NCBI RefSeq assembly: GCF_040436345.1
Contig: NC_133230.1
Coordinates: 6,655,297-6,719,296 of the forward strand
From: Pagrus major
Taxonomy: Eukaryota > Chordata > Actinopteri > Spariformes > Sparidae
DNA: 64,000 bases
Direction of reading: 5' to 3'
Position numbers and translations under genes: made by a program. Within the stretch, counting starts at the first letter, position 1, and each line of letters starts with the position of its first letter. The notes under the pieces are model-generated. The model had not been told where the DNA came from and did not search any database. It worked only from the letters and a program-made list of their open reading frames with translations. Positions 15,262-64,000 of the stretch are shown piece after piece.

Positions 15262-16100
15262 AAACGTCCCATTCCAGGGCCGCCACCTCTGCCTCTTCTG
15301 GAGCGAGCGTGCTCGATTGTGACTCTGAAAAGAGAAGCAAGAAATACTTAGTTATAATCCTTAGATGAACTACAAATTAAATGTTACAAATATGTCTATG
15401 AAAAAGAAAATGTCAGCTGTTGATTGTTAGAAAATGATAGGTAAGAAGTCGTGTAGACATTTAGAAATCTGTGTGGGCTGACTCAAATAATTTATTGGAT
15501 TAAACACAACACACTGCAACAACATCATGAGTGATTTCAGCACCATGACTTATTTATGTCCTCACAGCTTGGTGGGAGTAACGTGTCTCCCAAGCTCCTC
15601 AATTCAAGATGTTACAAGAGTTACACCAAAGCTGGTTTAAGTGTTTGGGACGTTACCAAAAACAAAACAGTTTTGCATGAGAAAAACCTACTGTGATGGT
15701 CGTCAGCTGCACCCAGTTTCAGTTACACGCCCACCATTCAGTGAGAGTGACCATGTCAGAGTAAAGGACTCAGAACAAAGGAACCATCCAAGACTAGGTC
15801 ATTACCTTTCACTGCATAATTCCTTTCCATTCAACTCGTACACAGCGTCATCTGCATCTCTGTGGTCATCAAATTCCTGAGGAGAGATGAAACCAAAGGT
15901 TTGTTTGTTGTAAAGACGAAAAAACAGGACAGGTTAAAACCCACAATCCACACAAAGTGCTCAGTCACACTCACCACAAAGCCAAATCCATTCTTCAGGT
16001 TGATCTCCCGAATCCGTCCATATCCCTTGAAAAACTTCTCCACGTCTCGCTCTCTGGCGTGTGGGCTCAAGCGGCCGATGAAGACGCGACAACCACTCAT
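12601..16100 (-). CDS. srsf5: SR splicing factor 5 (Srsf5)
   Basis: This is a nuclear SR protein that binds exonic enhancers and regulates splice-site choice. Seven coding exons (minus strand) are 16100-15975, 15876-15806, 15324-15202, 14775-14706, 13287-13214, 13126-13022 and 12928-12601. They join in frame to 298 aa (human about 272). RRM1 has RNP2 VFIGRL (6-11) and RNP1 NGFGFVEF (37-44). A Gly-rich hinge contains ten consecutive Gly (88-97). RRM2 is the SR-type pseudo-RRM with the SWQDLKD signature (128-134). Residues 190-298 are an RS domain of long Arg-Ser and Lys-Ser runs. The [11 protein letters not shown] start and RRM2 sequence separate SRSF5 from SRSF4 and SRSF6. Teleosts have srsf5a and srsf5b and I cannot tell which this is. 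Confidence 0.95.
13288..14705 (-). other. srsf5 long intron with decoy exon candidate
   Basis: This 1.4 kb intron separates the RRM2-part exons ending in SWQ and starting DLKD. It is the longest intron within the srsf5 coding region. On the minus strand it contains a strong donor (GGAGCG then GTAAGTAGC, exon end at 13901) preceded by about 150-200 bases of GC-richer sequence unlike the rest of the intron (13900-14360). Vertebrate SR genes commonly carry poison exons, so this may be one. It may instead be an old unclassified insertion. Confidence 0.3.
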
Positions 16101-17350
16101 TGTAATCTGCTGAAATGGGAAAACACGAGACTTGGTAAACATTAAACCAGAAAGTGGAGTAAAGATAGCTTAATATTTGACGCATGAAGGTCAGTATGTT
16201 GACCTCACATAGCCATTTAGTAAATTTTAGCCAGAGAGGCTTCCAAGCAACATGACTGTATTTGTTCATAAACACTGTAAATTGATTTCTGGTTTGTGAA
16301 ACACTATTTTGAGGTCAGAGAAGTGTTACATTAGCCAAGTATAGACTGAGAATGACAAACATGGTTAGCATGAAAGCCACATTAGGTTTGGTCGAGCCAG
16401 TTTCAGTGCAGTAGTTTACTTTCACTCCGGATTCACCAAAAGCCCGAAACTAATGTCCCAGCTTATCAGGTGCATCTTACATCCAGATACAAAGACTCCT
16501 ACCTAACTAAAGATCTTCAAAACTGATTGTTGGAGCTTTCTAACACGATAGTATTTCAATATATATGTACATTTTAGAGGTAGTAGTGTAATTTGACTAC
16601 ACTTACATTACACTAGGATGTTTTGTCTTACCTTCTTGATGCACATAGGGTGGACATCATTTTAAAAACACTTTTCATAATTTAAAATATCTCAACACCA
16701 CAAACTACAGTAGCAAAGGTTTATTAAGTATTTTTTTTAAAAATACCCCTAACAATAGCCAGCTTACAATCGATGGGACCGTAGTTATTTCGATTGGAAA
16801 TCAACGGTTAAGGCCCAACTTTAGCCAGCTAGTTAGCATTAGCTACGAGGGACACGCTGCGGTAACTAGGCTAATCGGCTACTCCTTAATGCGCTCAATT
16901 ATACCGTAAATTCGCGTCAAAACGTGCTCGATTGAATCTAAATTAGTACCAAATGCCATCCCAGTTAAGCTGTTTGATATTTACTGAAATGTGGCGATCT
17001 TTAACCGGCTTAAAAACGGGTTTCGTGTTTGGCGTGGCGCGTCCACGCCGGCCGCAGCTCGCCTTGAGGTCGACTTCAGCTAGTTAGCTACGCGAGCTAG
17101 CCACCTAGCGTTAGCTTACAAAGACGTTACTGCTCAGAACATTCGAGCACCGCGGCTCGCTAATTGAAAACCCGCAGAGTTAATGCAAATATTTAACATT
17201 AAACAAATGCGATTCTTACCGTGTATGGTTTTCCTCACACCGTCTCCGTTTTTTGTGTTGTTTACGTCGCTGGCGTGCTGCAACTTTGACCGTCTCGTCT
17301 GAGCTCGGCTCGATATTAAAATGGCGAGCGAGTCGAAAGAGCGGGGAACA
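16101..17350 (-). other. srsf5 5' leader: exon 1, intron 1
   Basis: The ATG exon is preceded by an acceptor written CAGCAG (16112-16107), only 4 to 9 bases upstream of the ATG at 16100 depending on which AG is used, so the leader must be spliced. A good donor (ACG then GTAAGAATC) ends a non-coding first exon at 17220, and its 5' end is probably near 17300-17390, where CpG content rises. An ETS-type word (CGGAAGT on the minus strand) lies at 17403-17397. First-exon limits are inference. Confidence 0.6.
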
Positions 17351-21068: not shown

Positions 21069-28773
<7,705 letters not shown>

Positions 28774-38218: not shown

Positions 38219-41201
38219 TCAGATCATGTTCGGGGCTACGCTGTGGAGCATGACGTCTCCGACCACCCGCAGCAGGGTCACGTCCTCCAGCCCGCCGACT
38301 CTGTGCTCGTACTCCAGCAGGTGGTTGCCGTCCACCGCCACTTTGAACATGTCGTCCTCCACGAGGATCTTCAGCTGCAGGGAGAGCAAAACACTTAATC
38401 CACAACAAGCCAAGTGATCGCGGGGAATGGAAGTATAGCTGCAATTATTCAGTCAAGCAATAGAAAAACAAGAATAATCCAGGAAATAATCTGCTAGTTA
38501 GTGAAAATGAAAATAATAGCTGGTTGCAGCCCGATACGCAACTCCAAGAAAGATTTTACTGCTGGAAAGACACAAATACTTTTGAACCTGGTGCTACATG
38601 AGCAGAGAAAACAAAGAAAAGAGCTGTGGTATTCACATTTTGTTCTGTTTGGGCCTGTTTATTCTGATTGAGGTGTTTATATGGAGCATTTTTATTCTGT
38701 TTGGGCTTTTAAACAGATCATAAATGCAATATTAGGCTCCATGAAAACACAGCTACTGGCATTGAAAGGCTCAATTATGTTTTCCATTCTTAGGCACAGG
38801 TCTGTTCCTGTAACGCTTTACCTCAAAACGGCGTCCCTGACAAAATGGGAAGCCTCCATCTCGCTCCTCTGGCCCCCAACATCCACCTAGTTGGGAGTTT
38901 CTGACAATAGTTTGCTCATGAAATCGGGGATTGAAGTGAAAGACGACGTCATGGCCTTTAATGAAGTCAACATGGAATCTGCAAGAGAAAGATCAGGACT
39001 GATTTCTCCCGACAGCTGAGGCGTTCAGTAATGTTCCTCAAACAGAAAGCGTCGCTGACATCAGAGTCAGAAGATGAGTGTTGATCGTACCTGTCTGCAC
39101 CAGGAACGGGCTCCCCAACTATTGTGATAACAAGTCGTGGCATAAGTCCAGCATGAAGTGGGAGATCATACGGCATCATCTGGAAGAAAAATGTGTATTT
39201 TAAAAATCACAGAAATACATCTATCGTCCTCTATTGTGAAATTAAGTTAAAAAGAATCATAACAGATTATAATTTACTGTGTTTATTAAGCAAAAATACA
39301 CAAATGGTAACATGTTTACCCTATTTATGAACTCTCCAGGGCAGAAGTACAATTGTCATTAATAGACCACACTTGGTAATAAACAGCTGAGTAGTTGACG
39401 TCATAAAGAGGGAATTTTTAGTCAAACATTAGTCAAAACTTTGACCGTGCCCACATTCCTAATGCAACACCTCGATGAGTCATCATCTCCTTCATTTAGT
39501 TCAGCACTCTTACACAATTCACCATGATTAGTCAAGACAATGTAAAGTAAAACAAAATTTTAAAAAGAAATCTTCAGTTTTCAACACTTTAATACAACAA
39601 GCCATCAAATATACAAACTGACTTCTGAGCAAAATGACAGAAGGCAGAAAAAACATTGAATTTTACCCATGTGACAAGTGGAAATAGTGATGAACATACA
39701 AACTGATTTCTGTCAGAGAATATATGTCTTAATACAGAAACATTTTTCTTTTGTGTAAACGTGTAATTTTAAAGCATATTGCACATAATTAAAAACAACA
39801 CATCCCCCGAAGCAGATGGAAACAAACCCTAACTTCATACTGTGAACAGTATATATTCAGTCTTTGACACATTTCATGCAGCCTAATCAAACCACATGTT
39901 GATTCTGGAGGTGACGTCCTTGTCCGACTGAAAAGTTGAGTTCATTGCTTTCAATTATATGGTGGATTATATCTGGGCTGAAAGACAAGAATACATTTTT
40001 GATAACTCTTTTTTGAATATTCGTTGATTCTGCTTTGTGTTAAAGTGTGCACACCCGCAGAGCCACAGATACAGGAAAAACAGCAGCCGTGACGTCCTGA
40101 AGCAAATCCCAACGAGGCAGGAAACTTTCTTTTTCCACCAGCAGTAATATCAGAGACACTAAACCAGTCACATTAAATATTTAGAAAAACCGCAGTATCA
40201 GTAGAACTGAATACTTATATGACAGCAGGTAACCTGTGTAGATGTACATTTAGCAGGTAGCTGGTTGTATTATTTCCCACCCTGAAACCAAAGAGCCCAA
40301 GAGAGATGCTCCACGGCAAACCAAAGCAACATCAGCAAAGACGTGCAGCAAGCAAGCATATAATATTATTGGTTAACAGTGCTCGTACTCACCAGCATGC
40401 CTCCAGGAGCAGCAGGCCCACCGTATGGACCCATGGGCCCGGGAGCAAAGGGGCTAGGAGCAGGAGGGAAGCCTCCGCCTCCAGGTGGTCCCCATGACCC
40501 AGGGGGCATCGGAGGAAAGCCTCCAGCAGGGAAAGCAGGGAAAGAGCCAGGACCAGCTGGAGGGGGGTATGCACCTGGACCACCTGGTCCGTACATCCCG
40601 TTGCCTCCTCCTGGCTGACCTCCTGGGTAAGGCACATTTGGATAAGGCCCGGGTGGAGCTCCAGGGCCAGAAGCAAATGGTCCTTGTGGGTAAGGGACAG
40701 GGCCTCCTGGTAGCTGTCCCGGAGCTCCTTCAGGCGGGTACTGGCCGGGGAACTGCCCAGGAGCTCCAGGACTGGAGGGGAACTGCCCTGGAGCTCCTGG
40801 CGCAGGATATTGTCCTGGTATCCCAGGACCAGGGGGGAACCCACCAGGTGCTGAAGGAGGTCCCGGATATTGCCCTGGTGCTCCAGGACCGGAGTGAAAC
40901 GGGAACTGCCCTGGAGCCCCCGGGCCAGATGATCCACCAGCGAAGTCACCAGGGGCGGAGGGCTGGGTGGGAGCTCCCGGGGCTGAGCCGGGCCATCCCG
41001 GGTTCGATGGAGGTGGAGGGTTGCTGGCAGGGGCAGAAGGGTTAGTGTTGCCTATTTTCTTTGCCTGGCCTGCGCTGTCCTCTCCTAAGGCATCTGCCAG
41101 CTGGAAGAGAAAGGGACTGTCAGTCTCCACATATCACAAGAAAAACATCAGCATGACGAATAACTGAGGGAAACATGTCAACTCACCGAGAAATCCGACA
41201 T
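38219..41201 (-). CDS. lgals3: Galectin-3 (chimera galectin)
   Basis: Galectin-3 is a beta-galactoside-binding lectin with one C-terminal carbohydrate-recognition domain and a self-associating N-terminus; it leaves cells without a signal peptide. Five coding exons (minus strand) are 41201-41187, 41100-40393, 39179-39091, 38978-38822 and 38374-38219, joining in frame to 374 aa (human 250). The start MSDFSLADAL matches the galectin-3 N-terminus with its phosphorylatable Ser. Residues 21-241 are Pro/Gly/Ala-rich, with PGAPGQ(F/Y)P units repeated several times between 64 and 135. The CRD keeps the ligand residues His285, Asn287 and Arg289 (HFNPRF), Asn298, Trp305, Glu308 and Arg310 (WGPEER). It ends HSVAPNMI. 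The N-terminal half is about twice the mammalian length. Teleost paralogue (a or b) is not decided. Confidence 0.94.
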
Positions 41202-44318: not shown

Positions 44319-45905
44319 GTAAGTAACTTCACTGGACGCTCGCTAACTTCTAAGCGCTTTAGCACATGTGTTTGTTAGCTGTTACGGAAGTTAGCTAACT
44401 TAATGTTTCAGCTACAGCCAGTCAGCAATATTTTTTAAGCTAATGCTAACGCTAATAGTGACATTTGGGTGGCTGTCAAATCTGAGAGGAGACGAACAGG
44501 GAAGATGGGGTCTTTTTAAAAAGCATAGTTAAAGACGTGTCTCGTCTCTTCGTCTGAACACAACAGCAGCGGATCCGTGTTGTCTTTCTCAACATGCCTG
44601 GTGTGTTTGCACAGACAATTAAAGGTGCAGGTGATGTGATTAAACTGTGTTATACAGTCTCACATCTGTGGTACAGATGTTGCCTCTCAGTGACACGGCG
44701 TGTAATCAGCGAAAACATGCACAGATAATCAGTTGTTAACACGTCAGCTACGCTAAATTCATCATGTCTGGTAATCGTGTGACAAATTTACAAAGCAGAC
44801 TTAAGATAAGTGGTGATAAAATTGACAGAGGGCTTGAAATTGCAGAAAAATTATGCTGTAAACCATATAATGCAAACACATCTATTGCAGTCAACATTAT
44901 GATACTATATTGTTAGTTTAAACTACCATACATGACTTAACTGTGTAGGATAATGAGGAAATACATATAAAACAAATACAAATGCAGTTATTATACTGCA
45001 AAATGTATATGTAAGCTGCTTATAAAGACTCAACTAACCTATTGCTTATCAACTTAAATTAGGGCTGTGCGATACCATGAAAACAATTATATTAAGATAT
45101 GTTTTGACAGATATTGCCATTGTAGTATGATTTATGATTGGATCACTTTTGCATTACAATTTTAGTTATCACAAAAAAAATTTATTGAAAACGTGATGTT
45201 GTGACATTTGTTGGGGTGTGTACCAAACAAACATGTTTTCTTACATCTGGAGAAGAAAGATTTGTTGGCCAGCGCAATTTGGCCAAGTGTTTACAGCAAG
45301 TTAAACAATGAATTATGACCTAGAAAGTATCCAGAATCTATTTAAAGTTAAAGAAGATCGATATGATTTGAGTGTGTGTGCATGTTTACAAAACAAAGGT
45401 TTAGGACTGAATTAAAAAAAAATAAATCAATGCATTTCTGTGAAAGGTGCACGATGTAGCTTTGGGGAAGAAGTTGTAATCAGAAGAGAAAAATCTTCAT
45501 TGATTGATTTTGATGACAACACAATTTCATACTGTTTTCCTTTGTTTGTATTTGCAGGTATCTTCTAAGTAGCCTCCTCTCTAGCTGTTAACATTATTGG
45601 TCAGGACCTTATTCTACTCTGAGACGGCTTATTTAATTAGTTATGGAGATAAAGAAATATTTTGAATTTGTATTACTACCTTATCAATATTTTAAGTATT
45701 ACCTTTCTGAGTTAGAATTTATTTTCCAAAACTTCACCTGCACCTTTAAATAGAAAATGTCTGACACACATTTCAAAAGTTTACCTCCATTTTTTTCTTT
45801 TGTCAAATTGTAAACTCAGACAGTTATTTCATTCTGTTTTCAGGTGAAGAAAGCTCAAGCATCCCCCTCGGCTATATGGCAGTAAAAGTGCCTCTCCAGT
45901 TGTGA
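44315..45905 (+). other. spliced upstream ORF of zfyve26
   Basis: The last four bases of exon 1 are ATGA (44315-44318). Joined to exon 2 at 45844 they open a 21-codon frame (MSEESSSIPLGYM...) that stops at TGA 45903-45905, 36 bases before the main ATG at 45942. This uORF exists only in the spliced transcript and would be expected to lower main-frame translation. Confidence 0.5.
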
Positions 45906-45941
45906 CCACTGAGCAGAGAAGTGTCACAGTTGGAAGTGAAG

Positions 45942-48900
45942 ATGCATCCCTTCGGCTGTGAGTCTGAGACCTCCCTTCAGGAACTGTTTGAGTACTTTAA
46001 GAGGTGCCTGCAGCATGGAGAGTGGGAGCTGGCCAGCGCCTGTGTGCCACAGCTGGTTGACTCAACGGGAGGACTTTCAGAAAAGCTGCAAGACATAATC
46101 AAAGCTATCGTCTGCCATCCTTACAGTTTAAAGTGAGTCACGCAGCAGCATGTTCACAAGACATCAGGGTTCTACTTGCGTTTAAAATGTGAATTGTTAG
46201 AGAATCAAATGTAATGAAGTATTATGAAAATTACTGTGATTGTACGATGGATTTATTGTGTGTTCATTTTGTAGATGGGAGTCTGTGGGCAGTCCACACA
46301 AACTGGCTTGGTTTTGGCTCCAGGTTTTGGAGAAATGGAGAAAAGAGCAGGTAATGCTCTTACTTCTTTCTCTGTTGTGCTTATTTGACTTACGACAAAG
46401 CCACAGGTTTAGTCGAGTCGTCCTCAACCTGCATGTTAGCATTTGAGACCACGTTTGTTTGTGTTTAGTAAAAAACACAAATCTTTGTTGGAACCAGAAC
46501 TCAAAACTGCACTATGTCCGTTAACAAAGCAGACAATATTGTGTTGTGAAATGGGATGAAAAGGAATCTGAAACATCGCCAACAGAGTGACACAATATCT
46601 CTACTCTTGTTTACTCTTCACTTCAGGTTCCTCCTCACATCAGACGAGAGCTGGAGTTCCTGCTGCTCTTGGAGCAGCTGGGGTCAGAGGGCATACCAGA
46701 GACTGGTCTTAAGGTTATTATTATTCTGACTTTGTCTGTAATCGATAGCGAAGTAGTAAAAACGCGATAAGAGAGTTTTTTTGCTGCTTTGATTGAGACA
46801 GATTGTTCCACTGTTGTAAATGTTGAGACAAAATACAGGCCTGAGATAATGATCTTTCAGCAGGAGTTGCATCAGGCCTTCTTGGACACACAGTCTGAAC
46901 AAAAGGCTCCAGATGGTTCAAGAACAACAGAAGCTGCTGTCGAGTCTTGCCTGCGAACCTTGTTGGAGAAAAAGAAGCCCAGACATGCCCAGTCTTTATC
47001 GCATTTCTTACAGGTAGAGCCAAAAATACTATAACAATAGAATAGCACAAAATGAGAACACAAATATGAACTATACAAACATGTAAGAATTTAAATTTAA
47101 GGAATTTGCCTCTTTTAGTATGTGTACATTTTGCCCATCTCCAACAGGACCAGTCATGCACAGAGGACCAAACTCTGCAGCACACGTTCATCCAACACCT
47201 GATGAAGAAACTGGGAAAACCAGAGAGAAGTCTGGAGAAGGTGGAGGAGTGGGTGGAGGAGATATACACCGTGCTGTCTGTGATGCCGTGGAGCTCTCGT
47301 AAAGGCGATGGGCAGTTCGAGGCGCTGTGCGAAGCGCTGTGGGCAGCCAGAGACGGGCCCCTGAGGGAGGAGAGGATCCTCAGCTCGTTGCTTCGCCCTC
47401 GGTGCGACGCTCTCGTCTCTACGTACTGTTCCACCGCTTTGAGGCTTCAGAGGGATCATCTACTGAGGAATGCGCCTGAAACACAAGGTAGTCTGAGTGT
47501 GTTCAGATCTTAAAGTCATCAATAAATGTGATTATTTTTGGTTTTTCAGGCTTTGCCCCATACTAAAAAAAACAGATTAATTCATGAATTTGTTTTATGG
47601 CCCTTTGAGCAATCTTCATGTTAATCATTACGCTTTGTAAATCAGTTTCTGAAATTACTTCCTATAAATCAGTTCCTCCTGTGGGCTGTTTTAGTTTCCA
47701 GTTTTGTTTTATTGTTCTGATGCTGATCATTTATTTATAGCCAGAGATTTGGCTTCCCTTGCATTCAGTTGGCACCACCCCTTTTCCTCTTTCAATCACA
47801 CTTTAATCACACTTCTGCTTCTGTGGCTGCAAAACGGTTACATGTGACAAGCAGCTGCTCTTGTCTTCTGCAGTTGTGTAAGTGTATTATTCTAATGACA
47901 AGCATAAAACAAACAGCATTAGATTTCACATTAAAGAAACAAGCAACAGACTTAAAAACAAGCAGCAAATTACATCAAGTGAAGGAATTTACCAGTGCTC
48001 AGTAACAGGAAATGTACATTAAGTGGTCAAATAGTCCTTTATCCTATTTCTATTATCTTCAGTGCTTATTAAGTAATCAAGTTTAATGTCTCTGCTCACA
48101 CCGAGATGAATGTGCTAGTTGAGTTGTGTGAGGAACGAGTTCGAGGAACGTACATAATTTATCCACGTGATCGAAGGCTGCTGATAGTTTTAGGAGTCAG
48201 TAGAGACCAGAAATAAGGAGGCAGTTTGTGTAATATGGTCCTGAAAAGAAAAACGTAATCAGCAAAAATGGGAACATTTTAAAACTTTTGCATTCCCTCT
48301 CAATATTTTATTTCATTCATTTGTTTTTCTGCTGCCATCTTGTCCAGGACTCCCGCGCAGAAGACAAATTGTATCTCAATTTGACCTTTCTTGGTATATA
48401 AATGGTTATACAAATGAATTCACTCACATAACTTATAGATGACATTTACCTTACTCACAAATTTTTTGCAATCGATTAAAGTTCTAACATTGTTATACTC
48501 GTTGTACTCATCGGCTCGTTTTCACTATTTTCCTCCCAGTGGACCTTCCTGAAGCAGAGAAGCTGGCCCTCAGTTTATGTTTCCACAACGATCGTCCATC
48601 CATTTGGAAGACCATTTATTTCGAGTGCCTTAGTCGTGGAAAGCACTTCCTCGAGCAGGTCTTGGTGAGTGTTCCAGTAAGAAAAATGGAAACATGTTAA
48701 TTTGATTTAAATGTTTTTCAACCAGATTTAAATGTGTGTAGACAATCTAATTCAGTAGCTTTGTAATGCTGCATTTTTGTGTAATTTGTACTAAGTAAAG
48801 CTGGTTTGCAACCTCATGTGAGGAAATTCAATAATGTAATAAGATTGATTTCTTCCTGTAGGTCACTGCTCTGGACCTGATTAAGCACGAGGAGTTCTCT

Positions 48901-51900
48901 CAGCTCAGAGACTTACTGAAGTTGGAGTTTCAGCCGCTGTCCCGTCTGCTGTTGCTCCTGGGATGGACTCAGTGTCGCAGTCTGAGCTCGGCTCAAACGC
49001 TGCTCAGCATCCTTCACCGAGAGCAAGTCAGAACTGAAAACTCATCTACATGAATGTCCTTCTCCATAGCCATTAAACACTATTAAGTGTTTTGTTGATA
49101 TAATCTTTATCTTCTTTTCAGGCACCGGCCAATGACTCTGTTCTGCAGGAGTTTGCCAGTCTTTTGTCCTCTCAGCTTAGAATACTTGAATGGTGTAAAA
49201 ACAACAATCCGTAAGTATTGTTTATTTTCCTTTTTTGGAGTTTGACTGGCGTTTAATCTTTATTTATTTTTGAGCCTTACTACTTTTGTATCTTGTTTCT
49301 TCAGAGAGATTTCTATGGAGGCATTGCTGGCACAGCTTCACACTCTGGACAATCACTCTGCTCTCTATATTCTGCACTCCCTGACTCCTTTGGCTCAGTT
49401 TGAAGAGCGCAAGATACTAGATCTGCTGCAGCAACTGCCAAATTCCCCAGGAGCAGGTCAGCATCTTCTTCATCCTCTCTGTTGTTTGTCAATTAGAGTC
49501 TGAAATTCATTTTGGGGTAAATTGCAAAAAGAATAATGCAATTTTTTTCCCCTGCAGAAGTCACAGAGGCTGTTGGTTCTCTCAGTCCCGGTGTGCAGAG
49601 GAACATAGTTTTGTTCCAGGGTTTCTGTGCCATGAAGTATGCCATCTACGCTCTCTGTGTAAATGCACATAAATACTCAAATTGCACCGAGTGTGAGTCC
49701 ATGCAGCAGCCGCAACACCACCAGCCCACTGAAACAGAAACTGACCAGAACCGAAACTCAACTTCCTCACAAGGTATGAAGGCTGTCTTTCTTTACTGCA
49801 GCAAAGCTTTATTTTGATGGCACACAGGTTGATTTGTGCCTTAAACTGTCCTTTTCTTGTCTTCTTCTCTGGTGTGTTAGTCAGGAAAAAAGTTACTGTA
49901 CAGCACTTGCACACAGAGAACAAATAAAAAGATTCAAACTCTCTCTATATATAATAAACTACAGGGCTATACAGACAGTTAAAAACACTGAGTAGTGTCC
50001 AACATGAACTGAAATGTTTGCACATTATTTCGCTGTCTGCATAGCCCTGTAATATTTGTAATAGAAACATTAAAAATCCAGACTGTAGCCTGAATCTTTT
50101 CTGTTCTCTGTGTGCAAGTCCTCCCTCGCTGCACTAAAGCTTTAATTTGGTGACAGATGACAGATGAAGCTTCCTGTCTGCTAATTTTAGCTGATTATAA
50201 TCACACTTTCAAAAAGAAGTGTGCATTGATGTCAGGGGTGAAATTGATTAAATATACACACATGTCAGTGTGTGGTTAGTTTTGTAGTGTTTTACAGTGA
50301 CTTAAAGGCATTTCTACATTAAACTTTATTGTTTAATTTGTTTTGTTTTTTAAATATACACTTGATGCCGACAACATGAAAAGAACCACAGCGTCCCAAC
50401 ATTTGTGATGTAGTACTAACTAATATTCTGACTTTCCAGGTTGCCATTTGTTGTTCGAGCACTACCTGTCGGAGTGTCAGCTCTATCTGGAGGCCGTGCC
50501 TGCCATGTTCCGCCTGGAGCTCCTGGAGAACATCTTCTCCCTTCTTTTCCTGTCCACTGCTGACTTTTCCCAGCAGATCCCAAAAGACACAAACTCAAAT
50601 CTGAACGCAGGCAATGCTGCTCAGTCAGAATGTTTATCTGACACAAAAAACACAAATGTAGGCTTGGGAACCAAAGCAAAGACAGATGAGACTGAACACA
50701 GCAGGACAGAGAACCAGAAGCAGCGTTCAAGTTCACCAACAGAAGCCCACCGTAGTCACCTGGACCTGGGGCACCTCATCCAGGGCTGCAAGGGGTTTCT
50801 GGTTGATGTGACAGCCATGGAGGGTTTTCTGAAGCTGCTGAAAGAAGGGTTGGAGGGCATGTGTGTGGTGGGCCAGCAGGATGGACAAGAGGCAGGAAGA
50901 GCGCTGCCTAGAGAGGCTGAAGCGGTGGAGAGCCTCGGCTGCTCGGTGACGGCTGACACATTCGGGACTCGCCTGCAGAGGTTATCCAAACGCACTGCAG
51001 AGGTTCAGTGGAGGCTGCAGATTATCAGCAGCAATCAGGGCAGCGGAAACGGTGAGATGGGCGAAGGCTAAGGATGTTTTTTTTAGCTTTTACTTTAGTT
51101 TATTGATTGACCTCTGCATGCAACATCGCAAATGAAAATCAAGAACAACTAAAACATTTGACGAGTGACTCAGATTGGAGTTCAGATTTGAATTTTGGCG
51201 TCCATTCTTTGAGTGTTGATGGTAAATTCACTTGCAGGTTCAGAGAGCCCTCTCAAGATGTCAGCGGTCACCTCTCCCGTCACTTCTCTGGGACGCAGCA
51301 AGAGCTCGAGCCTGAGGAGAAGGAAGAGACCTGGGAGACAAACCTCCGTGGAGAAACACAATGGAGAAGTGAGCACGAGCGCATCAGGTAAGACATAAAT
51401 TACAGCCTGTCGTTTACATATGTACGTGCATTGTTTCTGTATGTTTGTGTTTTCTTTTATCTTCCTTGAGAAAAGATTAACACTAAAAGGGTTTTTTGAC
51501 TTATATGTTTAAGATTTATATTGTTTTTGTGGATTTATGACAGTTTCTTTGTCCTTTGTCAGATGGTGGAGGAGGGACAGCGGGAGGTTGTGTGGAACTG
51601 GAGGTTTGTCCGTGCGGAGGTTCTCACAGCTGGCTGGTCCCCGCCATGTTGTCCCCTCCTGAGTCTCTGCTCATGTCCTGCATCCGCCGAGGGAACTTCA
51701 TGGAGGCACATCAGGTCTGTGTGGCAAAAATATTTTTTACCAGCCTAAAATTGAATGTTAATGTTGTTGTAAATATGTGTCTTTACATCTGATCCAGCAG
51801 CAATTACAAAATATATAAATAATTTGATAATGTCTTAGACGTAAATTGATGCGCTTAGTCTTGTGTTTTCCTCGGCTTCTCTGCAGGTGTCTCTGGTGTT

Positions 51901-54900
51901 TGATCTGGAGGCGTCTGCCTGTTGTGGTGAGCTGGTGTTCATGGAGCACTACAAAGAAGTCCTGGTAGAGTTGGGACGGGTGGAGCAGAAGATGGAGAGC
52001 CAGTCGATGTCTTCATCCTCATCCTCTTCAGAGGGTTTGGGGACAGCAGCTGCGACAGGAACAGGAACTGGGAGGACTCGGCTGGGCAGCAGTGGGCGAT
52101 CGACCCTGCAGGCCATCGGAAGTGCAGCTGCTGCAGGTTGGATTTCTTTTTTTCCTACTTAGGCTTGTTGCTCTTAATTTGCGGAATAAAAATTCATGTT
52201 AAACCACCTGTTTAAGTGGTGAAACACCCTGTATCATGTATTACTCAGGATCTGACTTCTGTGTGTGTTTTCCCGGCAGGTGTGGCTTTCTACTCCATCT
52301 CAGACATAGCAGATCGGCTCCTCAGCACCCCTGCTCACCCAATGCCCACACTGGAGGAAGGCTACTGGCTGAGCCGCTGCTCTTCAGACCCCTCTGGCCT
52401 CCTTTACACACTCTTGGAGGAGCTCAGCCCAGCAGCCATGGCTGCCTTTGACCTGGCCTGCTGCCACTGTCAGCTCTGGAAGACGTCCCGACAGCTGCTG
52501 GACACGGCCGAGCGAAGGCTCAACAGCAGCCTGGAGGCTCAAGGTATGCAGTCTGAATTTTAGGGCTATAGAACAAATTTATTCTACCATGGAGATTGGA
52601 ACAAGACCAACTACAATTGAATGTGTTTATTAGCAGCTTTACACAGGTAATAACTTCAGTTTTCATGTTAAAACCCTTTCTGCCTCCCCAGGAGTAAGAG
52701 TTGACCTTAAAGTACCCCATTCTGAGGGCATCTGTGGATTTCCCATGGTGTTACAACAGATCAACAAGATCCTGAATCATTCTGCCACAAATAAGGGCTC
52801 TATCAAAACAGGTGAGTAAAAGTGCTCAAACATTTTCATGATGGCAATATCACAGAGTGACCAATAGATGCAAAATAAGGGACTGAGCATAAAAAAACGA
52901 GCTGGATGGACGGAGTAGTTTCTGTCTCACTGATCCACTCTTGTTCATAGAAGCTGTCGGGGACGACCCAGTGTATTCCAGCCCATTTGGTTGCTGCATC
53001 CAGGAAGTGCTGCTGTCTTGCCACCCATCACTGAGAGAAGAGTGGATCGCTGCTTGGCTCAGTCGGGCTCAACGTTTGGAGACAACCCTGCACATCCTGA
53101 GCACTGCTCCAGACGGCACAGGTCGGCACAGTGATCATGGCTTTTCAGATGGTTTCATGGCAAATATTTCTTCAACCTGATTAAAATTACAATGACCAGA
53201 TGACATTTTCTTACAGGACTGAAGTGTCCTACCACCTTGAGTGTTTTTAGCATTCTGTGAGAAAGTCTGTCTAAGTTTCCTCTCATTTAACAGAGGGCAG
53301 TGTGGGCAGTGCTCTTCTGGCAGAATTGGTTGAACAGGCCAATCTGAAGCAGTCGGAGCTGGATGCTCATCCTGTGCGGTCCAGCATGAAGCAGCTGCTT
53401 CGTTCTCTGGATGAGCTTTGCCCCTTCGAGCCAGACGGAGATCTTGCCAGACCAGATTATGTGCGCAGTTTCCTTGACTACGTCAACACACTGGCATCTG
53501 TGTTAGTGCGCAGCCTTGGTTCAGAAGGTAAAATCATTTGTCAGATGATATGCTTTTTGTGTCCCTTTGAAAAAGTGTCGCCGAAAGCCTGTTTTTGTTT
53601 TCATTTTCCTCTCTCTTGCTGTTTCTTTTAGACCAGAACAATGAAGTGAAGCTCGGGAATCCACTGCTGGTTTTGCTTCAAGCCCCATTTCAGCTTCTCT
53701 CCCACCTGCTGTTTGACAGACAGGTGTCCCCTGACAGGTAGGTACACTGGTTAAGCCCCATCAGTGTCAACAAGTAAGCCTGTAGGTTGCATGCTATGTT
53801 ATCACTCACCCTGTTAACAAGGTTACCTGAACTGCAGATCTGTGCTTCACTATAGAAATAGTCTTGCAGTGTAGGTAAATAAAAGTTTACTTAAATGAGA
53901 CTGAAATCAAAATATGTATCGGGCATGTCAGGTTATAGATATTAAATCTTCTATTATTTTTAGTGTGAAAGAGTAAATGTATAAAAACATTTGTTTTGTC
54001 TGCAGAGTGCTCTCCTTGCTGCAGCAGGAAGGTCTTCGACTGAGCGTCCAGCAGGTGATTGTCCAGCGATGCTGTGACACTCTGCCTGTGTGGATCTCCT
54101 GTCCGGCTGATGAAAAAGACTCCAGTCAGGCCAAGAAAGATGATGATGATGATGGAGTATTCGGTGTTGCCAGCTTGTCTGTCCTGCTCCAACAGCATGC
54201 GCAGGAGCACCTGTCAACTCTGGGACTCACAGAGCCTCAGTCTGATGTGAGCTCTGAGTCTGAGGCCTCAGCCTCAGAAGACACATCAGCTACAACCACC
54301 ACCCTCTCCACCTCACCCACCTCGTCATCATCTCATTCATCCTCTACATCAACCTCTTTCCTCCTCACACCATCGGCCTTGTCTTTCCTAAAGTCTCGCT
54401 CACCTTTACTGGCCACAATGGCATGTTTAAGCGCCTGCAAAGGAGAAACCGCCCGGACACAACCCTCTGGATGGTCTGGCTATTTCCGTAGCGGCCGTAA
54501 AGAAGTCGTCCTAGATGGAGAGCAAATTTCTCGTGAAGCAGACACCCTCCTGAAGGAGTTTCCAATTCTCCGGGCTTACTTGCACACCATGGCTGAACCA
54601 GTGCTGGGCACTCTGCTAAATGATAGCGAGGAAGGTTCTGCTGGACTGGGGGCTGTTGTCTGTGGGAAACCCTTAGTCAGCCTCCTGCTGTCTGGGCCTC
54701 AAGAAGAGGTTGCACAGGCTGTGGCTGCTGAGGCCTTCCAGAAGGCCCTTTCCTCCAGAGACCTGGGCCGAGCCCTCAGTCTGCTGGAGCTGTATGGGCA
54801 GGGCTGCAGCCAGGAGGGGGCGCTAAGAGACCGTCTGCTTGCCTGTGCTGCACTGGAAGGTAAATGCATTTTGACAAAAGACAACTCGTGGAGGCTCATG

Positions 54901-57900
54901 GGATGGCTTTCATGTGCTTCTATTATGAGATCTGATCTAATTAGATCCTGAGGTGATTATGTGTTGAAACTTTCTTAAACATACTACAAAGAACTTTTGG
55001 TCATAAAACAGTCTCAATTAAATACTGATCTCCCTCTACATGACCTACATACAGTAAGCAAACAAGACAACCAAAGTGTTTGCTGTTTATCTCATTTTTT
55101 ATGTCCAGATGGAGTTGAAGGCATAGGTGAGCTGTTCCGCGTACAGGATGCTAACCTGCGAGCCCGTGTTGCCCTCCAGGCTCTGGAGCGCTGGCCTCTG
55201 TCAGCGTGCCTGGAGCTGCTCGAGTTCTGCCTCAATGACCCGAGCACAGAGACGTCGCTGAGAACAGACTTGGAGCTCAAGAAGAAAGAGCTGGATATCT
55301 ATCACTGGGTAATTCTTAGAGTTTCTCATACCTGTTGGTTGGCATAATTTTAAACTATATTCTTCATTGACATTATTTGACTTTCCATGATGACAAGTGT
55401 GTTTCTTTTCTTCTCAAAGATGTTGAATTTGCGTCCCCCGCTGCCCTGGGCTACTTGGCAGGAGCTGAGGACTGAGTCTAAAACAAACTCTGAGTCCATG
55501 TTATCAATGATGCTGGAGGCAAAGGTGGGTACAACACCACCTGCAACAGTTTACTGAGCAAACAGTTGCACATTGTAAATCAGATGTAAAAAAAACAGCA
55601 AATATTGCCACAACTTAACACACATAAATCTCAAATGTTTGTTTATCTACATGACATAATATTAGAAATCTCTTCATTCTCTGCAGGAGTTTGCTCTTTG
55701 TACACAGTGGGTTGAGCTCTATCCCGTGTCGGACCAGCTGAGACTGCAGCTGAAGACTGAGCATTTGCTTCACCTGCTGGAGAAGGGACAGACAGACGAG
55801 GCTTTCCAGGTCCAAACCACTAAACTTCTGGTTGACTTTAGACTGAAATCAGTTTAATAAAACTAGTAATTTCCCAGGGATGACTCAGTTGATTCCTGAG
55901 CTGACATTAATACTACTGGTTTACCTCTGTACCAGAAAGTACCGGATTTCTGTGCATTTATGTTCCAGAAAACTCAAATGAGAATTATAAACTAATACTT
56001 ATTCTAATTAACGTAACAGGCAGATGCACACAATACACAATGTTTTTGCCTTGGAAAGAAACAAAAACAAACGTTTACCCTTTTCAACTGTGATTTTCTT
56101 AATTCTTACTTGGACAGTTTCTCTCTCTTTTAGTTAATTTCCTTAGTCACTTACTTACTTATTTATTTTGCTTTCTTTTTTTTGTCTTTAGTTACTCGAG
56201 GGCCTCTCAGATTTCGTGGTTGGCCTGGACGTTTGTGAGCGCTCTCTGGACCGTCGCCCCGGGTTGGCTGCCTGTCACTTCCTGGCTGACTACCTCACTT
56301 TGCATTTCCAGAGGCAGGTGTCTCCGGCACGTCGACGACACATCCACGCCCTCCATCTGGGCTCTAAGGTTTGTGAATGTCAAGTGGTGCACTGGTAACA
56401 TATCTGCAGCAGCAGTCTTCTTAGTGTAACATAAGACAACCATATGAAACAGCTATATGAAGGTTGGACTGAAGTTTTTACATATTGTACTTTTTACTCC
56501 ACTACATTTATTTTACACTTATAGTTAGTGGTTATTTTTCCACATTTGACATGCTTATATGAAATGATGCAATATTACAATTCTATTCTACCCAGTAATA
56601 TATAAAGTAGGCTACACATTGACAAACTCCAACATTAACAACATTGCTTGAGACGGGTTGTGGGTACTGTGTGTGTACCGCTTTTACTTTTACTTAGTAA
56701 AGGATCTGAGTCCACCACTGATAATATTTTAGAGATAATTATCTGATTCATTTGTTGAGGGGATTTTTTTTTTAATCTTCAAGTAGTACTGTATCAACAG
56801 AAGTTCACTCACAGTTCACTCCCTTCCAGGAATTGTAATTTTCTTTCTTCCTTTCATGGTTACTTAAGTTATGTCTTGCAGTCACACGCTCAGTTTTGCG
56901 TCATTCTAGAAACCCTGTATTGTCGAAAAAGGCTTTGCAGTTTCATCATACTTAAAATGTTTATCTTTGCACATGAAATTGTTTAGTTTAAACAAATGTA
57001 TTAATATAGTGGTGTAGATTTTTTTTGCTCATTCAAACTTTACTTTAACTTGGAAATACATTGAGATAGAGACATGATCTAGAATATAACCAAGTAAGTG
57101 ATCTGGTCAAAGATGTTGGTTTAACACTATTAAAGCAAAATTCTTCAACAGTTGCTCCATATATTTAGGTTGTTCAGTGGATTTGTTTTCTCCTCCAGGT
57201 GTTGCTGACTCTGCCTCCTGCTGCCAGGCAGGACTATTTCCCCCTGCTGTCAGAGCCCCTGCTGATGCTCGAGCAACTGTTAATGAACCTGAAGGTGGAC
57301 TGGGCAGATGTGGCGGTGCGAACCCTGCGGAGCCTCCTAATTGGTCAGGAGGCTGGCTTCGGTCCGGAGGACATCGATAAGCTTCTGGCAGACTACGCCT
57401 GCAAGGCACTTGACTTCTCCTGCGCTCCCAGGGAGAAGTCTCGATCTGGTCAGTGCTCACTGATACATTTTACAAGTTTGTTTCAGCTTCTCATGTAGAA
57501 AAAGTTTTGGAGCTCATATTTATGTTCCTCAAAGAAAACTATACAAAAAGTATTGTTATGGTATGAGTACTGATATTGAAGTTTTTAAAAACCTAGCCCT
57601 TAAACTGGAACATTTACTCTACTGACACATAACTGACACAAATTCATACCAACTTAAAAACACTTACTTTTCTTCATTAGATTTGTTGGGATCAAAGTGA
57701 AGCAAACAAAATGTTCTTGTGTACCAAGATATACTGTATTGTAACAAAATCGATGTCACATTTTAGCACAGCCAGTGACCGTAGATAACAACATGTTTTT
57801 TCCAGACTCTGTAATCAGCCTCCAGGATGGGCTGATGCAGTGTCCGGCTCAAGACAGCTGCTCCCAATCATCCAGAATTGAATCTCCAACATCCTCCACA

Positions 57901-60900
57901 GGTGAGCATGTTTCACAGTAAGGATATGCTATGTACATTCCTTCATTGATTGATATTTATATAGCACCTAGACCTGCTTTATAATTAAAAAAAGAAATGG
58001 AAATCCCCTTTTCTACGATATTAATTTAAAGAAATGTGAATGAAGATCTTTCTTGAGTGTTGTCTCTGTTGTAAATTTAGTGTTAAGTGTGCTACGATAG
58101 ATGAAGTTCCTGGTTTGAAACATCTTTGATTTGTTTTTCTTTATTGTGTTTGACTACAGGCAGCACCCCTACACACACACCTGCCTCAAACAGCACAGAC
58201 CGGGAGAAGGATCGAACTTCAGCGGGTAGAAAACGCCGCTCGTCTGCCAAATTCCAGCCTCCGGACCAACCCCCAGCCCGCAAAGACTGGGTCCCTGACA
58301 CCCAGCAGCACGTGTGCATGGTCTGCCAGCGTGAGAGGTTCACTATGGTGAGTGGGCAAAATAATGTGAGACTCACTGGTGTCGTCATGAATTAATAAAA
58401 AAGTACTTGCTGACATATAAAATATATTCTATGCGTAAAAATACCATATCAAATTCCCCAATTGGGACAAATAAAGAAGGTCCTTCCTTAAATCACCTTG
58501 AATTCAATAGTCAGGAAGATGAGGAAGGAAACTAATGTGAGAGTAACATGGCAGTTCAACTGGTTTTCAGAATAAAAATAAAATACAATATTTATGTTCT
58601 CTCAGTTAACAATAGTTGTTTGTCTTTTGTGCTTTTTTCTCTGCTTTTAGTTCAACAGACGACATCATTGTCGGAGATGCGGCCGTCTGGTTTGTAACGC
58701 GTGTTCAGAGCACAAGATGCCTGTAGAGGGCTGCCCAGGAGAGGAAGTCAGAGTCTGTGACCAGTGTTACGCCTACTTTCACCCAGAGTAAGACCTCACA
58801 TGTCAAAGGAAATCTTTTTTTAACAACACAGGCACTGCACTCACAATATTCATTGGACACATTGGACCTTGTGTGACTTTTTAAGTTCTGTTTTAAGTGT
58901 GAAAAACAATTGGACTGAATATAATTTGTGGTTTTAAAATGTTCAGTCTTTACGAGAGAAAGTTGTGATAAAGTCTTTTGTAAATTTTGCAAGCAGGCTG
59001 TGATGGGAACCCTTTGAGAAAGTATGTAGATACATCCAAAATCATGTCACTGTGCTTTGAAATTAATTTTGCTGCTTTTTTACATGTGCAGTTCTGACGA
59101 TGAGCTGGAACCAGCTGAAGGTAAACTGTTAACTATTTCCTCTTTGATATATCATAGTGACATAGATGCATTCTGAAAAAGCAAACTTGCCACCTGGAAC
59201 GTCCAAAATGCAGCCATTCTTAGATCGGTACTGTATAGAGGCTGTAATGATGAGCTCTCACTCTCTCTCTCAGTGGCTGGAAGCCCAGTGATCACAGAAG
59301 AAGCTCTAGATGGGATGTTGCATCTGCCTGAAGTGGTCCAACAACAGATCCACCTCAGCACAAACCCCACAGAGAACCAGCTGCTGAGGAGCGAGTTCTA
59401 CTACGAACAGGTCTGACTTTCATGATCACACAGGATCAATCACTACCAGGTCATTACATTGCAGGTCGTAAGACTAATCATGGTCTTTTGCTAAAAACCC
59501 CAAGGCTCCCAGTGCGTATCTCTGCGTGGCGGTCTTGTCTCTGCACAGTGACCAGACGGCCTGTGGCCACCAGCTCATCAGCCACTGCCGCTCTCTGTCA
59601 CGTAAGCTGACCAATCCAGAGGTGGACGCCTGCCTCCTCACTGATATCATGCGACAGCTGCTGTTCAGTGCTAAGCTGATGTTTGTTAAGGTTGGCCGCA
59701 GTCAGGATCTTGCATTATGTGACAGGTAAGATGTAACCCTCGGTCGGTGAGATGTTAAACAGTTTGTAACATTTCTTACACTTGGTTTTTCACAATTTTC
59801 TTGTCTCTTTTTTTGTTTCCGCAGTTACATCAGCAAAGTAGACGTGCTAAAAATCCTCGTGTCGGCCAATTACAAATATGTCCCCTCTCTGGATGACATT
59901 TTGGAGACTTCAGCTGTCACACGTCTCCGTAACCAGCTGTTGGAAGCAGAGTACTACCAGCTAGCAGTGGAGGTGAGGCATTTGGTGGTTTATTATTAAT
60001 TTGTATTTCATTGCTTTGCATTTAAGTATTAACTGTCAGGGAGTGCAAAAAAACATTAATCTCAAACAAAGAGAATAGTTTGCTCTGCAAGATTTAGCTA
60101 CTAGCTGCTCGTCACCTGCAGATGTTGTCATGTTTCAGATGTACATCCAGTGTTATGCAATATGAACACCCTGAAGGCAAATACTACTTTTTTTAGTTTT
60201 TAGTTTCTCTGATAACAAATATTTTGTGCTGCCATTCAGAAAAGTCAAAATGGATTATATTAATGCTAGTTTTGTGTAGAATATTGACCAATAAGTTTGT
60301 GATAGGACCGTAATGTATCCAATTTTCAGAGTGGAAAGCATTCAGACCACCATGGTGCAGAAAGCCAGTTGTTTAAACACTTACCTGTAATATTTGGATA
60401 GTGGAAGTAGCATTTATTAATTATAGTTGAACCCTGACTCCCAGGAAATTAAATTCCATGTTTTTTTGGCTTTTTTTTGTTTTTTGTTTTTGTGTCACTG
60501 GTAATTTAGGTGTCCACCAAGAGTGGCCTGGACCCTGGCGGCGTATGGCAGGCGTGGGGGATGGCATCTCTGAAGGCAGGGAACCTTTCAGTGGCGAGGG
60601 AGAAGTTTACCCGCTGCCTGAAGGCTCCAGTGGACCGCAACCAGCTCAACCTGGGACCCTTACTGCTGCAGGAGGTCATCCAGCACCTGGAGACCAACGT
60701 ACATCCCACTCTGGCCACGGTAGGAAGACACCTCATAGTTGCAGCTTACTCTTACTTGCTGAAGTGGTAGGCATGCTACTGCCTAAGACCTCGATTATAG
60801 CCCTTATTGAAGCGGATAATATGTGCTGGGCTTTGCAAGTTAGACATTTCCCAACTTGCATCAGCCTCACCATCATTCCTAAATGCTATTACATAACGAA

Positions 60901-63900
60901 ATTAGCATTTTAATACAAGCCCTAATGTCTTTCGTGCAGCTAACAACCAAACTGCTCTGACTGGAATTTTGTGTAGAGTGCACTTGAAAACTTGCCAAAC
61001 ACAACAACTTAAATGTCATGTCCTGAAATGATTGGTGAATCTGCCTAATATAAAAGTCTTGGTAAGAAAAATAGATGTGTAGCGACTCTGTAAGTGTGTT
61101 TAACACACAGCAGAAGAAAATTCACATTGCTTCTAAAAAAATTTAAAAAAAGCTATAAAATAGTCATTTTACCGACCATTTATAAATCTTTCTGCAGTAA
61201 AAAGTATTTTGGGAAAACACATTAAATGTCAGGTTTGTACACACTGTCACAGTCAGACTGTACAGAATGTGCAGGACTGCTTCACCCCCCTATTCTGGTA
61301 CATGACACCTTGGGAATGTCTCACGTATTGTTTGATGCCACGGGGTCTTTGCTCCGTCACTTCGAGAGGAATGTGTTGCACTTGTACCAGCGTGTGGTTT
61401 CTATTGGACAGGATTACGTGGGAGTTGCCAGTGAGGAATCATTGTTATGTCTATGTTGTTCTGTATTCTTTAGCAACTTGACCTTATCATACTGTGCTTG
61501 GGATAAAAGCACCACTGCAATAAGATTTACGTTACATTAGGTAAATTGTAATGTCTTACATTATGTGCACATACACATTCTTTGTGTGATGTTTGTGTTG
61601 TCCGTGTGTTCCTGTGCCTGTGTCAGTCTTCTGGGGAGGACATCTTAGCGTCCTTGCGGGAGCTGGAGGACGCCCTGAGCGAGGTCGGTCCGGTTGATCG
61701 ACCAGAGGGTCAGACTCCAAACAGCAGCTTCCACCAGGAGTGTCTCTACTACCTGAACACATATGGCACTCACCTGGCTCTGATCAGTTTCTACATGCGA
61801 CACGACTGCATGACAGAGGCCCTGACATACCTGCTTAACAAGGTGAGATATAGTTTTTTTTGTTTGTTTTTAAATCACCATGAAGACATTCAGTTTCATG
61901 TTGGGAGGTGTTAGTTACATTTCCAGTATGTTTTAATCATTTAGTTTCATTTAATTTGACATTAAATGGCATCGGATGTCTGTCTGAAAATAGAAATTTC
62001 ACGCTTCTTTTGTGGTGTAGTTTGTCAGGATCATCTGACCCAACTTCAGATATGATTTGTCACCCCTCTGTTGCCAAGATCAGTCAGGCTACAAAACGCT
62101 GTCCAATAAACAAAGTCTGTGTGACTTTGGTTTAGACTTCCCTTTTAGGTTCCCTTTTAATGTGACAACAAAGCACACTTAAGATCTAGCAGTACAAGCT
62201 GTAGGTTGATCGGTCCCTTAAAAAGGCTGAACGAGTAGCAGTGTATCGAGTGTATCACAAGTACAGAAATTGAGCCACTGCTGCACATGCCAATACATGT
62301 TTTGTATGACGCATGTTTTTCTACTTGACTACGTGACCATTCTACGTGACTCAGGACTGCCCAGATGAGGTGTTTCTCGAGGGCGTGTTGCAGCCAAGTC
62401 TCGAGCGGGGGCGTCTTGGCTCGCTGCAGGGGATCCTGGAAAAACTTGACCCTGGCCTGGAATCATGCAGCCGCTACCTCATCGCCTCCTGCCAGTTCCT
62501 GCAGCGGCGAGGATACTTCAACACTCTGTACCAACTCCAGCAGTTCATGATGGTCAGAGTCTTTTTAAGAGCATTTTAGATTTTGATAATCATTTTTTCA
62601 AAATGAGAGGTGAGCTTGGTTGAAATACTGGAAATCGATGGAACATGGTCTGTGCCTTAGCCAAGGATTAGAGAAAATTTTGAAAATAAACTATTTATGA
62701 TTTTTTTTTAACATGATCAAATAATAATAATTTATCTAAGTAATATGTAAACTTCTGTTTTCCTGGACAGGATCATGTGCGCGCGGCCATGACCTGTATC
62801 CGATTCTTCACACATGGAGCCAGTTCGTACCTAAAGCTGGGAGAACAGCAGGTATATCTCTTTTTTTCCACAGTTGTGCAGTTGGCAAAACTTAATAAAA
62901 ATAAAACAAACATTTCCTTGCTCATTTGAGAAAGTTGACCATGTCCTTGACCTTGTACAGCGCTGGTTGGTCAGAGCCAAAGAGCACCTGAGGACGTACC
63001 TGCAGGAGCAGCAAGGTCGGGGTGGTGGGAGGAGAAAGTCTCAGGTCAACTCATTCAGGAAGATGATGTCATCCAGTGACGTGTCCAGGTTAATATATCC
63101 TTATATTATTGAAACAGGATGGAAATAAATTTACACTTTGGCCTTTCTGTTTTACCTCTTTCTGTTTTTTTATTTTCATTAGGCACATGAACACAATTGA
63201 GCTTCAGCTGGAGGTGACCCGTTTCCTCCACCGCTGTGAGACTGCAGCCACCTCCAAGGCTCCACAGACCAGCACGCCTTCCTTCAAGTCCTCTGGATCC
63301 AGCTCACCACCTACACTGTTTGGAGGAAGCCCATGAAAGTTGAGGTCGCCTGCAAGGTGAGGTTCTAGTTGTGATCATCCTAGTACTCTATGATCCACTA
63401 AAGATAGATAAAGTTTATTAAAAATGGCCCTCTACCTTACTGCTGACTTTACTCATGTGTTAAACATAACATCTGGATAACATCTTGCTCTTGCTCCCAT
63501 GTTTTTTGCAGGTGATGCTCGGAGGAAAAAACATAGAAGAAGGTTTTGGCATTGCATATAGAGTCATACAGGTATGTTGTGATATTACATGTGTCACCTT
63601 ATATCTAAACAATCTGACACACTGAAGATGCATAGTCAAGTGAATTTGATTTGCTTTGCCTCAGTGGCCTAACAACTTGTTTACTGTTCACTGGTTTTGG
63701 TTTCAAACGTTAACTGTTGTTAATGTTTTCTCTTTCTCCCATTCCTTCCTGCCTCAGGACTTCCAGCTGGAGGCCCAGGCGGTCTACGTGCGGGCGGGCC
63801 AACGGCTGGTCCGACAGAGGCAGTATGGAGCCGTACGGCAGCTGCTTAAATGTGTCGGTGAATCGGGCACTGCCACCAAAAATGACTGCGATGCTCTCAT

Positions 63901-63940
63901 CCTGAGCTGTGTCTCCATCGCAGATAAGGCACCAGCTGAT
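45942..63940 (+). CDS. zfyve26: Zfyve26 / spastizin (partial at 3' end)
   Basis: This is a very large FYVE-domain protein (human 2,539 aa) that works with spatacsin and AP-5 in lysosome and autophagosome maturation and in cytokinesis; human mutations cause spastic paraplegia 15. Forty coding exons can be placed here. They sum to 7,565 bases, and adding one base missing near 63330 gives 2,522 codons. The product starts MHPFGCESETSLQEL, like the human MNHPFG start. It is mostly helical, Leu-rich alpha-solenoid, with a Ser/Thr-rich low-complexity stretch in the 854-base exon (54006-54859). The FYVE zinc finger is at about 1862-1926. The gene ends beyond the right edge, probably by one or two exons. 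An apparent frameshift in exon 63183-63356 puts a TGA at 63334-63336. Exon lists are given in separate entries. Confidence 0.95.
48333..48430. repeat. retroposon tail fragment in a zfyve26 intron
   Basis: The words CTTGTCCAGGACTCCCGCG, GTATCTCAATTTGACC and TTCTTGGTATATAAATGGTT resemble the conserved 3' tail of a common fish retroposon. Only the tail remains. Confidence 0.45.
49903..50119. repeat. foldback sequence in a zfyve26 intron
   Basis: The left arm ACTTGCACACAGAGAACAAA recurs inverted at the right end (GTTCTCTGTGTGCAAGT). Nearer the centre, TACAGGGCTATACAGACAG pairs with CTGTCTGCATAGCCCTGTA. Arms are roughly 80-90 bases with a loop of about 50. It lies wholly in the intron before exon 50440-51051. 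It could be a MITE relic or a transcribed hairpin. Confidence 0.7.
51887..57901 (+). other. zfyve26: zfyve26 exons, residues 836-1818
   Basis: Exons are 51887-52136, 52280-52543, 52692-52811, 52951-53121, 53294-53527, 53632-53737, 54006-54859, 55109-55308, 55420-55524, 55687-55809, 56192-56368, 57199-57448 and 57806-57901, joining in frame. Conserved blocks include GRSTLQAIGSAAAAG, AAFDLACCHCQLWKT, ALSFLKSRSPLLATMACL and LLMNLKVDWADVAVRTL. The 854-base exon also encodes a DDDDD run and a Ser/Thr tract (about 54240-54370) that looks disordered. Intron lengths range from about 100 to 830 bases, short as usual in fish. Confidence 0.9.
58160..59120 (+). other. zfyve26: zfyve26 FYVE zinc-finger exons
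   Basis: Exons 58160-58347, 58651-58787 and 59092-59120 encode a Ser/Pro-rich linker and the FYVE domain (about 1862-1926). All signature parts are present: WVPD (1862-1865), the RRHHCRRCG basic motif (1884-1892) and RVC (1915-1917). The eight zinc-ligand Cys are 1871, 1874, 1888, 1891, 1896, 1899, 1917 and 1920. FYVE domains bind phosphatidylinositol 3-phosphate on endosomal membranes. The zinc finger is split by an intron after the second Cys pair's approach (FTM, FNRR). The 29-base exon (59092-59120) is a microexon coding the DSDDELEPAE segment. Confidence 0.93.
59274..63940 (+). other. zfyve26: zfyve26 C-terminal exons
   Basis: Exons are 59274-59410, 59505-59725, 59825-59972, 60510-60719, 61627-61842, 62355-62552, 62771-62851, 62961-63088, 63183-63356, 63512-63571 and 63758-63940. 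They encode the C-terminal helical region with family blocks LRSEFYYEQAPSA, LTNPEVDACLLTDIM, SYISKVDVLKILV, AAMTCIRFFTHGASSY and VMLGGKNIEEGFGIAYRVIQ. All join in frame except exon 63183-63356, which is one base short of the phase required by the next exon. Confidence 0.88.
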
Positions 63941-64000
63941 GTGAGTGACAGAAACCTTTTGAGTGTACTAATTTAACAAATCTTGATCATGTCTTGGCGT

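Follow-up and report, generated by a model that had tools for sequence, protein, structure and literature searches.

Mutations of ZFYVE26, the gene for spastizin, which is linked to inherited spastic paralysis in humans, are described in systems that closely resemble the locus characterized here. In zebrafish, souffle (suf) mutants missing the last 282 of the 2552 residues of Zfyve26 are reported to be sterile as females, and the Suf domain is placed at residues 2375-2552, i.e., 178 residues (PMC4072560). In humans, the one-base frameshift c.7111dupA, p.(M2371Nfs*51), lies in exon 38 and was reported as homozygous in a patient with SPG15 whose parents were heterozygous (PMC10482258). Apparent frameshifts can also arise in the course of assembly; false ones have been documented in vertebrate genes (PMC9516821), and short frameshifting indels are given as the commonest errors of vertebrate assemblies built from noisy long reads (CLR) before polishing (PMC8081667). 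We analyzed a window of 64,000 nucleotides from Pagrus major (NC_133230.1, positions 6,655,297 to 6,719,296) in which zfyve26 carries a one-base frame break. Like the human duplication, the fish break is a one-base frameshift in exon 38 that affects the same C-terminal segment, and it aligns with human residue 2368, three codons upstream of the reported SPG15 frameshift at M2371. However, the human change is an inherited duplication for which patient and parents were sequenced, whereas the fish case is a missing base in one unvalidated assembly (PMC10482258). The zebrafish allele p96re likewise causes a C-terminal loss that removes the Suf domain, as the fish break would, but it is a splice-donor mutation located further upstream, with 282 residues lost, in a mapped mutant with a phenotype (PMC4072560). 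The documented assembly errors resemble our locus in that a conserved gene is intact except for a lone short indel, but those were assessed with sequencing reads and the fish break is known from the assembly alone (PMC8081667; PMC9516821).

The zfyve26 (spastizin/souffle) gene occupies positions 45939..64000 of the forward strand and continues beyond the window. Its structure was modeled with a custom spliced aligner that allows frameshifts, using window positions 45801-64000 plus a 5-kb continuation as the target and, as the query, a human ZFYVE26 sequence that equals PDB chain 8yad_C in length and was checked against it, with agreement, over residues 2329-2455. The resulting model has 41 exons and 7715 coding bases, with one frameshift and no in-frame stop, and it is colinear with the human protein exon by exon over human residues 1-2524. 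The zebrafish gene is likewise described as having 41 exons (PMC4072560). Translated positions 58651-58785 contain the FYVE zinc finger (PF01363, E 2e-13), while its first part, in the preceding exon, falls below the cut-off by itself. The other characteristic domain, TPR_ZFYVE26 (PF25569), is found in two pieces at 63773-63943 and, past the window, 64303-64464, each of which comes after the premature stop described below; in a Pfam scan of 10 exons or open frames, the C-terminal one alone passed the cut-off. The native stop (64516-64518 in window numbering) also lies past the window end, after ...GRPNAR, and the tail that follows the premature stop (8 + 20 + 61 + 17 + 70 = 176 codons) is open as far as this native stop in the neighboring 10 kb. 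With this tail intact past the window end, the premature stop cuts off 176 codons, including all of TPR_ZFYVE26. Identity to human was 48% before the break (1101/2288 aligned residues) vs. 55% after it (86/156), indicating that the tail has not decayed. Some modeled exon ends are uncertain in poorly conserved parts, e.g., a GC donor was chosen after 63934 with an obvious GTGAGT at 63941, and therefore the position of the premature stop, at about residue 2416, is not exact; residue 2433, given in the original prediction, was not reproduced. Taken as a whole, the locus is an intact teleost zfyve26 gene apart from one base lost between the codons for PTLFG and MKVEVACK, a short C run being the most likely site.

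The break lies in the exon at 63183..63356 of the forward strand, the counterpart of human exon 38, which is bounded by a tag/GCA acceptor and an AAG/GTGAGG donor. The preceding exon (62961..63088) ends in phase 2, its AG/G joining to form the R of RHMNT. From there the upstream frame reads through SSSPPTLFGGSP (the full run being RHMNTIELQLEVTRFLHRCETAATSKAPQTSTPSFKSSGSSSPPTLFGGSP), ends in ...PTLFGGSP and meets a premature TGA at 63334..63336, while MKVEVACK is encoded in another frame from the ATG at 63333 (63333..63356). The next exon (63512..63571; 60 nt, phase 0) encodes VMLGGKNIEEGFGIAYRVIQ and the following one (63758..63940; 183 nt, phase 0) contributes 61 codons that hold the first part of PF25569; both are intact and match human ZFYVE26, as had been proposed. 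A table entry for r.6987_7128del gives human exon 38 a length of 142 nt, or 1 mod 3 (PMC10482258), whereas the fish exon has 174 nt, or 0 mod 3, where 1 mod 3 is needed; the fish exon is thus one base short, in agreement with the original prediction. The linker between FLHRCE and PTLFG (window positions 63262-63309) is 11 residues longer than its human counterpart, and these extra residues, in two inserts (PQ and FKSSGSSSP), explain why the fish exon is longer than human exon 38. When the exon was compared with the human structure 8yad_C, using a query with X at the break (residues 2329-2455, E 7.6e-42), human PTLFG-NN-HMKMDVACK stood opposite fish PTLFG-GSP/MKVEVACK, and the part of the exon before the break also matched 8yad_C as the sole query (E 4.7e-08). 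The columns line up on both sides once a single missing base is allowed for in the fish exon. The frame break itself is therefore confirmed by the sequence and by the human alignment. Its exact position is less sharply defined. Placement of the break after 63324, 63327, 63330, and 63333 scored 61, 61, 62, and 62 against human, respectively, with earlier breaks reaching at most 53 and later ones at most 46; given these near-equal scores, the missing base may fall anywhere in about 63322-63333 (63322..63333 on the forward strand). The top-scoring placements are at or beside the CCC at 63330-63332, and in the spliced alignment human residue 2368 stands opposite just two bases, 63331-63332. A missing C in the CCC run, as originally suggested, is accordingly a likely and favored site, but not a proven one, as the other placements score about equally.

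As a yardstick for frame breaks in this assembly we used long single-exon genes, which were collected by a PF08266 profile search of the genome. This search gave 144 matches (150 of the 173 first-look candidates were scored), 124 of them in one array on contig C18 at 25.53-26.07 Mb, a large protocadherin cluster whose 124 domain-bearing exons lie on a single strand. The 20 matches outside the array were set aside; 16 of them are open for at least 800 codons and the other four for 732, 484, 277, and 200. Outside the array, three matches to the profile lie on contig C13 at 2.37-2.40 Mb. In the array, 123 of the 124 exons are open over 788 codons or more; the control scores the open frame around one domain, and a break past about codon 780 could be missed. 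The exception, at C18:25844961, has 672 open codons followed, past a CT repeat, by family sequence in another frame (best E 4e-23 vs. paralogs). The frame of this exon breaks at about C18:25846817 (within C18:25844501-25848500), and a pseudo-exon, an allele and an error are all possible there. Reading 150 kb of the array base by base revealed 39 full-length exons (at least 700 codons; 32,833 codons in total), all open, together with three further family fragments, namely one cut by the edge, a 478-codon copy missing its 5′ half and, ahead of exon 26006086, a stretch of 27 codons in a different frame that is probably upstream of the translation start. As far as can be told, none of the three is a frameshifted coding exon. 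The 478-codon copy, at C18:26064827, is 97% identical to residues 374-847 of its neighbor and represents a partial duplicate. The frame-break rate in the array, errors and real changes together, is about 1 per 300 kb of open frame, the latter being an estimate obtained by multiplying 123 exons by the mean of the 39 measured ones, and at this rate about 0.025 breaks would be expected in zfyve26. With one broken exon in 124, at a single locus, the assembly is not rich in errors in that array. A generally careless assembly is hard to square with this control, but an isolated error is not, and the limit set by the control applies only to the sum of errors and alleles. The assembly also looks chromosome-level, three other contigs measuring 23 to 38 Mb. 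The contig of 17,031 bases (C25) codes for a mitochondrial COX1, which we judged to be fish-like.

Several explanations of the break are very unlikely. A premature stop is what a decayed pseudogene with a working copy elsewhere would show, but exactly one break occurs in 41 modeled exons, there is no decay after it and no second copy of the exon was found in the genome (785.9 Mb, 25 contigs), where the exon's one match was itself. Similarly, PF25569 had no genome match above the cut-off of 27 outside zfyve26, with one weak match of 17.3 bits on contig C8. Nor does the locus resemble a unitary pseudogene, in which several disruptions or relaxed constraint are looked for, since it has one break, no in-frame stops and an identity that is kept after the break. 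It is just as improbable that the break is spliced out, as would be the case if a 71-base GC-AG intron (63259-63329) joined ...ETAATSK to PMKVEVACK in frame. This is the top model once frameshifts are forbidden, yet it scores 814.2 vs. 842.4 for the frameshift model, a deficit of 28 units although the latter has already paid a penalty of 25; moreover, its splice sites are poor (donor AAG/GCTCCA, acceptor GGAGGAAG/C) and it deletes PTLFG, which is common to human. Thus, splicing around the stop, which the original prediction had left as an alternative, fared badly in the alignment. The part of the exon that precedes the stop contains five GT sites, of which 63214 alone is in phase 0, and this site is weak (6/9) and would remove conserved sequence; none of the 10 GC sites in the same stretch reaches 7/9. 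Skipping of the whole exon was also considered and rejected, because joining phase 2 to phase 0 does not restore the frame. Least credible of all is programmed -1 ribosomal frameshifting at AGC CCA TGA. The two frames do share one base, which is what a -1 shift requires, but such shifts occur on a slippery heptamer of the form X XXY YYZ and the sequence at the site has none. Furthermore, the 100 nt downstream fold ordinarily, whether taken from the genome (z 0.28, partly intron) or spliced (z -0.45, with 57 of 200 shuffles as good), and human reads the region in a single frame.

What is left is the pair of readings that had been proposed at the outset, an error of the assembly or a real truncating allele, and this division holds, except that the run has only three to four C and is not a long homopolymer. 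We consider a one-base consensus error to be the more probable cause, at roughly 55%; a real allele takes most of the remainder and all other explanations a small residue, a division that is a judgement rather than a calculation. By this mechanism, one base would have been lost from the consensus between the PTLFG and MKVEVACK codons, likely in the short C run, and the living gene would keep its open frame since the base would be missing from the assembly only; we infer that the fish itself has it. A consensus error is favored by the single break in 7715 modeled coding bases, the absence of in-frame stops and a tail that is open and free of decay, and also by the failure to find a second copy in the genome together with the probable cost of homozygous loss, as seen in zebrafish suf. 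On the other hand, frame breaks are few where they were tested in the same assembly (1/124, located at a CT repeat), accurate reads do not typically err in a run of three to four bases, and the fish could carry a null allele in heterozygous form without harm. These points lend weight to the reading that the sequenced fish carries a real one-base deletion, probably heterozygous and rare, as a recessive null like those of SPG15 and souffle, which we regard as a serious possibility, if short of an even chance. The accuracy of the assembly in the protocadherin control supports it, and so does the human exon 38 frameshift, whose heterozygous parents demonstrate that carriers of such alleles exist (PMC10482258). 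Predicted loss-of-function variants are reported in all humans (PMC4572071), and fish would be expected to carry them likewise; a literature search on loss-of-function alleles in wild fish returned no fish study by title among the matches listed. The zebrafish phenotype suggests, however, that a real allele would impair female fertility in the homozygous state.

Should the allele be real, its effect would depend on the fate of the mRNA. A stop more than 50-55 nt before the final exon junction generally leads to nonsense-mediated decay; in zfyve26 the premature stop precedes that junction by 317 nt. Decay of the mRNA, and hence a null, would thus be more likely than the truncated protein that was originally envisaged. 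Any protein that escaped decay would be without its last 176 residues, corresponding to the Suf domain or TPR_ZFYVE26 and nearly equal in number to the 178 residues of the zebrafish Suf domain. A zfyve26 null that occurs naturally in a fish would be useful for understanding how the loss of spastizin is tolerated. It is unlikely that the deletion is both real and common or fixed in the species, in which case spastizin would very recently have lost the Suf/TPR domain or the whole protein. A deletion of this kind would be nature's equivalent of SPG15 and souffle, with neurons and egg maturation coping without the domain or the protein. For annotation, an automatic model of the gene would probably be truncated here, provided with a false tiny intron or flagged as low quality.

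Other features of the window lie upstream of zfyve26 on the reverse strand. An RRM exon (PF00076) at 15834-16169 and an RS-rich open frame at 12604-12999 belong perhaps to an SRSF4/5/6-type splicing factor. A PPPDE peptidase domain (PF05903) is encoded at 21686-22162, in what we take to be perhaps a desi gene. A long open frame of proline-glycine-alanine repeats at 40369-41133 had no Pfam match and resembles, in our estimation, the N-terminal part of galectin-3. In the zebrafish suf interval, a galectin is also reported beside zfyve26 (PMC4072560).
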